DNA from: Bacteroidaceae bacterium
GTDB lineage: Bacteria; Bacteroidota; Bacteroidia; Bacteroidales; Bacteroidaceae
Assembly: GCA_017520935.1 (NCBI GenBank)
Contig: JAFXEF010000013.1
Coordinates: 62,001-126,000 of the forward strand
Direction: 5' to 3'
Length of the DNA: 64,000 bases
The position numbers and the translations under genes are program-made. Within the stretch, counting starts at the first letter, position 1. Every line of letters begins with the position of its first letter. The notes beneath the pieces were generated by a model. That model searched no databases. It was not told the origin of the DNA and saw only the letters and a list, made by a program, of their open reading frames with translations. Below are positions 39,955-41,679 of the stretch, piece by piece.

Positions 39955-40091
39955 CAGAAATGCCCAAATAAATTTGGCATTTCATTCGGTTTGCACTATC
40001 TTTAGTATCCGCTTTGCGTATACAGAAATTAGGCGGCACCTCAGAAATGCCCAAATAAATTTGGCATTTCATTCGGTTTGCACTAATTTTG
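39955..40091 (+). repeat. Duplicated palindromic promoter element upstream of mdh
   Basis: A 44-bp sequence is repeated exactly at 39955-39998 and 40042-40085. Each copy contains a palindrome, AAATGCCcAAATaaATTTGGCATTT, whose 3' arm supplies the -33 TTTG, followed by TTCGGTTTGCACTA and a -7 box. In the first copy the -7 reads TATCTTTA (39997-40004, final G lost); in the second it is a perfect TAATTTTG (40084-40091). AGAAATTAGGCGGCACCTC (40024-40042) joins them and recurs before rpsU. Confidence 0.92.
40060..40091 (+). promoter_or_regulatory. mdh promoter
   Basis: TTTG (40060-40063), 20 bp, TAATTTTG (40084-40091): an exact match to the Bacteroides promoter plan. Leader of about 45 nt to the ATG at 40142. 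Confidence 0.85.
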
Positions 40092-40141
40092 TGGCGAGAA
40101 GGAAGACAAGATTTGTTTTACTAATATAAAAGAAAGAGATT

Positions 40142-41190: not shown

Positions 41191-41195
41191 TTTGC

Positions 41196-41299
41196 TCGGT
41201 TTGCACTACCTTTAACTTGCTTTGCAAGTAGAAATTAGGCGGCACCTCGGAAAAAATCAAATAAATATTTGTTTTTTCGCTCGGCTTGCACTAATTTTG
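41196..41299 (+). repeat. Second copy of the compound promoter repeat, upstream of rpsU
   Basis: Matches 39986-40091 in order: TCGGTTTGCACTA, a decayed -7 (TACCTTTA, 41207-41214), GCTTTGC, AGAAATTAGGCGGCACCTC (41230-41248), an AAATAAAT-centred palindrome of different arm sequence (GAAAAAATCAAATA/TATTTGTTTTTTC), CTCGGCTTGCACTA and an intact TAATTTTG. The palindrome arms differ between loci while their position is kept, which suggests selection for the fold. Confidence 0.88.
41268..41299 (+). promoter_or_regulatory. rpsU promoter
   Basis: TTTG (41268-41271) in the 3' arm of the palindrome, 20 bp, TAATTTTG (41292-41299). It gives a leader of about 127 nt before the rpsU ATG. Confidence 0.83.
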
Positions 41300-41315
41300 C
41301 AGCCGCTAAAAGTGT

Positions 41316-41324
41316 AAAGGAGGT
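41316..41324 (+). promoter_or_regulatory. Perfect Shine-Dalgarno sequence in the rpsU leader, far from the start codon
   Basis: AAAGGAGGT is a 9-nt perfect complement of the 16S rRNA 3' end, in a window where other genes show no such sequence. It is 106 nt upstream of the rpsU ATG. No ATG, GTG or TTG lies at a usable distance after it. TATATAC (41340-41346) and GTATATA (41382-41388) could pair and shorten the path, but not enough to place it at the start. A regulatory ribosome-binding or anti-SD-sensing site is likely. Confidence 0.65.
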
Positions 41325-41430
41325 AAATACAAGTAGAAATATATACTGACACACAAACCTAAAGAACTGCGTGCAAGGCGCGTATATAAGAAAGAAAAAG
41401 AGTAATAACAAAATAATAAAAAACAACAAA

Positions 41431-41622
41431 ATGATTGTAGTACCCGTAAAAGAGGGCGAGAACATCGAAAGAGCCCTCAAGAAATTCAAGAGAAAATTTG
41501 AGAAGACAGGCGTAGTGAAGGAGCTCCGTCGCCGTCAGCAGTTCAACAAGCCTTCTGAAGTTAAGCGCCTCAAGATGGAGCGTGCCGTATACGTTCAGAG
41601 CTTGCGTCAGAACGAAGAGTAA
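41431..41622 (+). CDS. rpsU: 30S ribosomal protein bS21
   Basis: 63 aa from the ATG at 41431 (MIVVPVKEGENIERALKKF). A GTG at 41371 in frame would add a lysine/asparagine-rich tail not found in the family and is rejected. The basic helical protein with FKRKFEKTGVVKELRRRQQF matches bS21. In Bacteroidetes bS21 helps hide the anti-Shine-Dalgarno end of 16S rRNA. Own promoter and strong terminator. Confidence 0.95.
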   Translation: MIVVPVKEGENIERALKKFKRKFEKTGVVKELRRRQQFNKPSEVKRLKMERAVYVQSLRQNEE

Positions 41623-41640
41623 TCCCGTATAACTCATACA

Positions 41641-41679
41641 GATGTGGGCAGACCCGACTGGTCTGCCCACATCTTTTTT
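41641..41679 (+). terminator. rpsU rho-independent terminator
   Basis: A perfect 14-bp stem (GATGTGGGCAGACC / GGTCTGCCCACATC) with a 5-nt loop, then six T residues. Begins 18 bp after the rpsU stop. Confidence 0.95.

Follow-up and report, generated by a model that had tools for sequence, protein, structure and literature searches.

In the Bacteroidia, the tail of the 16S rRNA is held by the proteins bS21, bS18 and bS6, and Flavobacterium johnsoniae ribosomes devoid of bS21 prefer the strong Shine-Dalgarno (SD) sequence of rpsU, and translate rpsU better (PMC9976891). According to McNutt et al. (2023), whose survey scanned the initiation region only, with a control window 25-40 nt upstream, no Bacteroidales fall within their criteria for such an rpsU SD (PMC9976891). 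In cry3A, a non-initiating SD near the 5' end of the -129 transcript binds the 30S subunit and protects the mRNA (Agaisse and Lereclus 1996, reviewed in PMC4113751), and in tisB a standby site is located about 100 nt upstream of the RBS (PMC7708055). A search of the open-access literature on rpsU and the anti-SD in Bacteroidetes and Bacteroidales retrieved general works and the papers on F. johnsoniae, in none of which a distal SD is described.

The window, i.e. the whole stretch of 64,000 nucleotides analysed here, comes from an incomplete, metagenome-type assembly of a Bacteroidaceae bacterium. The preliminary description had reported a perfect SD in the rpsU leader about 107 nt from the start codon, and this was confirmed: the 9-bp motif AAAGGAGGT is separated from the rpsU ATG (41431) by 106 nt, and the end of the 8-mer AAAGGAGG by 107 nt (the features of the locus are collected in the table). 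From the known promoter class, transcription of rpsU is predicted to start at about 41303-41307, which would put AAAGGAGGT some 9-13 nt behind the 5' terminus of a leader of about 127 nt. The terminator directly follows rpsU, which is thus probably transcribed alone. An attenuator was discarded, since the leader holds no terminator and the only one stands after the gene, and no Rfam family matched the leader at the gathering score. The A-rich stretch preceding the ATG contains no SD, its best duplex with the 16S tail reaching about +0.8 kcal/mol. The promoter regions of mdh and rpsU (39955-40092 and 41195-41299) have in common a spaced repeat of 85-87 nt (TCGGTTTGCACTA..TTT, AGAAATTAGGCGGCACCTC). 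In the SD-bearing clade the promoter of rpsU looks like this module; judging from this likeness, the new leader may have arrived through promoter replacement.

Table. Features of the rpsU locus, in window coordinates.
Feature	Position	Strand	Description
Promoter of rpsU	41268..41299	+	Bacteroidetes type, predicted from sequence: TTTG (41268-41271), 20-nt spacer, TAATTTTG (41292-41299)
Distal SD, AAAGGAGGT	41316..41324	+	Exact complement of the anti-SD ACCUCCUUU of the canonical 16S 3' tail; conserved in ten species
Hairpin UGCGUGC-AAG-GCGCGUA	41368..41384	+	Between SD and start codon; predicted fold
A-rich, mostly unpaired stretch before the ATG	41390..41430	+	Usual Bacteroidetes initiation region
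rpsU	41431..41622	+	bS21, 63 aa, Tyr54 present; stop included; from translation
Intrinsic terminator	41640..41674	+	15-bp stem and U tract; from sequence

Taken by itself, the lone copy of AAAGGAGGT in the window, which is that of the rpsU leader, is within chance and proves nothing, as dinucleotide shuffling gave 0.40 expected copies per window, with at least one copy in 30 of 100 shuffles; when the leader alone was shuffled, AAAGGAGG arose in 155 of 20000 cases. The genome as a whole holds 24 copies of AAAGGAGGT, many of them in or opposite reading frames and some serving as ordinary SDs within operons; a TAnnTTTG box within 120 nt upstream is found for the rpsU copy alone. One of these copies (L308, contig 29) stands at normal spacing before an RnfG-like gene within an operon (TTTTGCAAAGGAGGTAAAGAAATG), with similar sequences in other congeners. 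Since a single copy is unsurprising, the meaning of the motif derives from its conservation.

Among 19 genomes of the genus, those of the relatives being incomplete MAGs, rpsU was found in 17. Ten of the 17 leaders keep AAAGGAGG, at 102-109 nt from the ATG (genomes G000, G002, G004, G006, G007, G010, G011, G012, G014 and G018), and the seven leaders without it (G001, G003, G008, G013, G015, G016 and G017) are shorter. Throughout the ten SD-bearing leaders AAAGGAGG is the only run of at least five invariant bases: all eight columns of the motif are invariant, against 22 of 134 elsewhere. The leader of G004 (L003), which is about 45% identical to that of the window outside the motif, keeps the 8-mer intact; with L003 excluded, the conserved block widens to UGUAAAGGAGGUA plus CCGCUAA. 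The leader tree, again leaving L003 out, has a length of 3.8 substitutions per site, and eight unchanged sites would be expected under neutrality with p of about 6e-14, a rough value as the model ignores other constraints on the leader. When ten congeners were searched for near matches to the 16-nt block, most of what came up was background. In the G004 assembly, about 20 copies of AGTGTAAAGATGGTAA are present, many of them at contig ends, and the sequence is probably a mobile element that breaks the assembly.

The interval between the TAnnTTTG (-7) box and the SD is 24 nt in nine leaders and 25 nt in L003, so that across the ten it stays at 24-25 nt while the distance to the ATG varies. This steadier spacing speaks weakly for a function linked to the 5' end, the weight of the constant interval being limited by its shortness, which leaves little room for indels. 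When a tree of rpsU was computed, one branch (support 93/92) set apart the nine SD-bearing species whose gene is full-length, a grouping that requires one change and fits a single gain. The upstream neighbour gene differs among most SD-bearing species, so promoter, leader and rpsU move together as one unit. YVQ occupies residues 54-56 of bS21 in all full-length congeners, Tyr54 being the anti-SD-contacting residue shared with F. johnsoniae. Close to it, bS21 carries Asn39 and Ser57 in the SD-bearing species (L001-L009) and Asp39 and Gln/Lys57 in the SD-less congeners (L010-L017).

Beyond the genus, the comparison was extended to about 265 rpsU leaders of Bacteroidales, a few species being counted twice. 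None of the leaders read outside the genus carries a distal in-transcript AAAGGAGG, and the predicted distance from transcription start to ATG there has a median of 51 nt. A wider family of distal SDs was rejected: in a pattern search of 399 family genomes, the rpsU matches were the same ten genomes, with none outside the genus and three further matches at unrelated genes, and in 393 order genomes the window's own was the one match. The distal SD is thus not a general trait of Bacteroidales, seven congeners and the other sampled genera being without it. The preliminary description, which had called for rpsU leaders to be compared across the order, had taken absence of the motif from close relatives as the outcome that would speak against its proposal. 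That comparison has now been run, and the motif withstood it inside the ten-species clade, being absent from the seven congeners and from all other sampled genera. In the same survey, four leaders of Paludibacteraceae type (L107, L114, L116 and L117) and one from another family (L273, genome G245) presented an rpsU SD of 9-12 nt placed 6 nt before the ATG, with predicted duplexes of -18.6 to -20 kcal/mol, which is the Flavobacterium-type arrangement. Such strong, normally spaced rpsU SDs in some Paludibacteraceae contrast with the report by McNutt et al. of none in Bacteroidales.

The distal SD, with 8-9 bp, pairs less strongly than these normally spaced sequences. Its duplex with the tail was calculated with RNAduplex at -12.4 to -14.3 kcal/mol over the ten leaders, nine of them at -13.4 or lower, and it can be counted as a strong complement of the F. 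johnsoniae type (below about -13 kcal/mol, a limit set with a different program in that paper). The canonical tail was used for these calculations; a search for the 16S 3' end in the 19 genus assemblies left 18 without a match and provided a lone candidate match, GGTTCACCTCCTTT. No complement of the anti-SD was found in the last 25 nt before the ATG of the SD-bearing leaders. In addition, neither ATG nor GTG nor TTG occurs within 28 nt downstream of the motif in any of them, and the earlier claim that no usable start lies near the SD holds in all ten. A second, shorter SD-like sequence, AAGGAG, is present about 65 nt before the ATG in the leader of one species (L006). Established are thus the exact complementarity to the canonical anti-SD and its conservation, the constant position of the motif close to the promoter, the lack of any start codon within reach and the clustering of its carriers on the tree.

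Regarding RNA structure, the motif is about half unpaired in the folded models (unpaired probability 0.51-0.71), and the start codon region is mostly unpaired in nine of ten. The hairpin predicted between them recurs in relatives as a short stem, mostly of 4-7 bp, with G-U/G-C/A-U exchanges at one pair; the shuffle p per species ranged from 0.004 to 0.25, below 0.05 in five of eight, which amounts to modest evidence for a recurring structure. The TATATAC/GTATATA stem, by which the preliminary description had proposed that the leader could be remodelled, was rejected: it is absent from the predicted fold and not conserved in relatives, its 5' arm containing two inserted bases that only the window's species has and its 3' arm lacking conservation.

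With the rpsU autoregulation of F. johnsoniae, this locus shares the gene, a strong anti-SD complement in an otherwise SD-less leader and an occluding protein with Tyr54. The F. johnsoniae SD, by contrast, forms 9-13 bp at initiating distance, while the present one, of 8-9 bp, lies more than 100 nt off with no start codon. The position is rather that of the STAB-SD of cry3A and other Gram-positive mRNAs, where a leader of about 130 nt carries, close to its 5' end, an SD which is not used for initiation; here, the SD would follow the predicted transcription start by some 9-13 nt and is followed by 28 nt free of start codons. Nevertheless, Bacillus combines RNase J1 with ribosomes which read SDs freely, whereas the present genus belongs to a class with an occluded anti-SD and apparently has no RNase J, no such 5'-to-3' exonuclease being detected above the cut-off in 19 congeners (incomplete assemblies); RNase E/G is present in the genus.

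On these grounds we tentatively propose, with somewhat less than even confidence, that 30S subunits with a free anti-SD, i.e. deficient in bS21, use the motif to dock at the 5' terminus of the rpsU mRNA. Normal Bacteroidales 30S subunits, their anti-SD held by bS21, bS18 and bS6, would pass over the distal SD, whereas subunits lacking bS21 would base-pair there and occupy the 5' end, with no initiation taking place. As a docked subunit cannot initiate, its benefit would have to come through mRNA protection or standby. Of the two, protection is the more attractive, given that the motif lies near the 5' end and that the start region is open: the docked 30S would shield the 5' end from 5'-end-dependent decay in a STAB-SD-like manner, presumably against RNase E/G or another nuclease, since RNase J was not found, and the site might also keep subunits nearby. 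More bS21 would then be made from the ATG, which lies 106 nt downstream and has no SD, and a shortage of bS21 would lead to more bS21 synthesis, as in the Flavobacterium circuit, with sensing split from start-codon selection. Docking of the ribosome, its dependence on bS21, the ensuing protection or standby and the autoregulation are all inferred. Against this reading stand the apparent lack of the classical STAB-SD nuclease, the weaker pairing, the half-unpaired motif, a 16S 3' end not located in 18 of the 19 assemblies and a transcription start that is predicted rather than mapped. The suggestion in the preliminary description that a ribosome without bS21 binds the site and controls translation in another way survives in that a ribosome-sensing role which does not place the start fits best and the motif is conserved in the clade, its proposed stem being the part without support.

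A relay, in which the distal SD first receives a 30S subunit with free anti-SD, which then travels to the SD-less ATG or stays near it, raising initiation and not stability, is less likely. A bound subunit covers no start codon, tisB offers a precedent about 100 nt upstream of its RBS (PMC7708055), and a 30S-mRNA complex formed before the arrival of fMet-tRNA has been discussed by McNutt et al. (PMC9976891). The likeness to tisB, however, is limited to a landing site, putative here, about 100 nt upstream of the start: in tisB an unpaired region, a pseudoknot and S1 serve a sequestered RBS, whereas here the landing signal would be an SD and the RBS looks open, the ATG being mostly unpaired in nine of ten models. 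Besides, folding of the predicted hairpin still leaves the SD outside normal spacing, and the SD is placed more exactly relative to the 5' end than to the ATG, within an interval that allows few indels. The fixed 24-25 nt to the -7 box would also suit an element unrelated to the ribosome, either an initially transcribed sequence that influences pausing or promoter escape, or the target of a protein or small RNA, and so would the longer block seen without L003 (UGUAAAGGAGGUA plus CCGCUAA); we rate this slightly lower still, as what all ten leaders share is exactly the anti-SD complement and nothing more, in the gene of an anti-SD-occluding protein.

That the motif is a chance occurrence, a functionless inherited relic or the SD of a leader peptide seems improbable. 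A single copy is within chance and the ten species share ancestry, but conservation far above that of the rest of the leader strongly disfavours both chance and relic, and an upstream ORF behind the SD is very unlikely given no start within 28 nt and no conserved start codon or frame. Even less credit can be given to an intramolecular switch, in which the SD-region GGUA...UACAA pairs with rpsU codons 2-5 (UUGUA.UACC) and hides the start until a ribosome opens it. Such pairing is seen when the window and some relatives are folded to minimum energy, yet only GGUA:UACC recurs widely, and its two invariant sides carry no information; several species (L004, L009) have lost the second half, L003 breaks the first, and there is no excess stability (z -0.46), so that variation provides no support for pairing between the SD and the start region. 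Least credible is a decoy, where the SD-bound 30S blocks rpsU or is wasted: the site indeed cannot initiate, but the effect would be to cut bS21 when bS21 is short, a runaway circuit, and nothing favours it.

If the docking explanation is correct, the SD helix would here report on the composition of the ribosome without also positioning the start codon, two jobs thus separated in a class whose ribosomes normally ignore SDs. With the same tentativeness, short of an even chance, this lineage would have evolved a way to autoregulate bS21 at the mRNA 5' end, where bS21-free ribosomes are sensed by an SD physically separate from the start codon, the pairing being the signal and not the means of initiation. 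Autoregulation of bS21 would then also exist in an order reported to be without it, and 30S docking without initiation would have a natural test.
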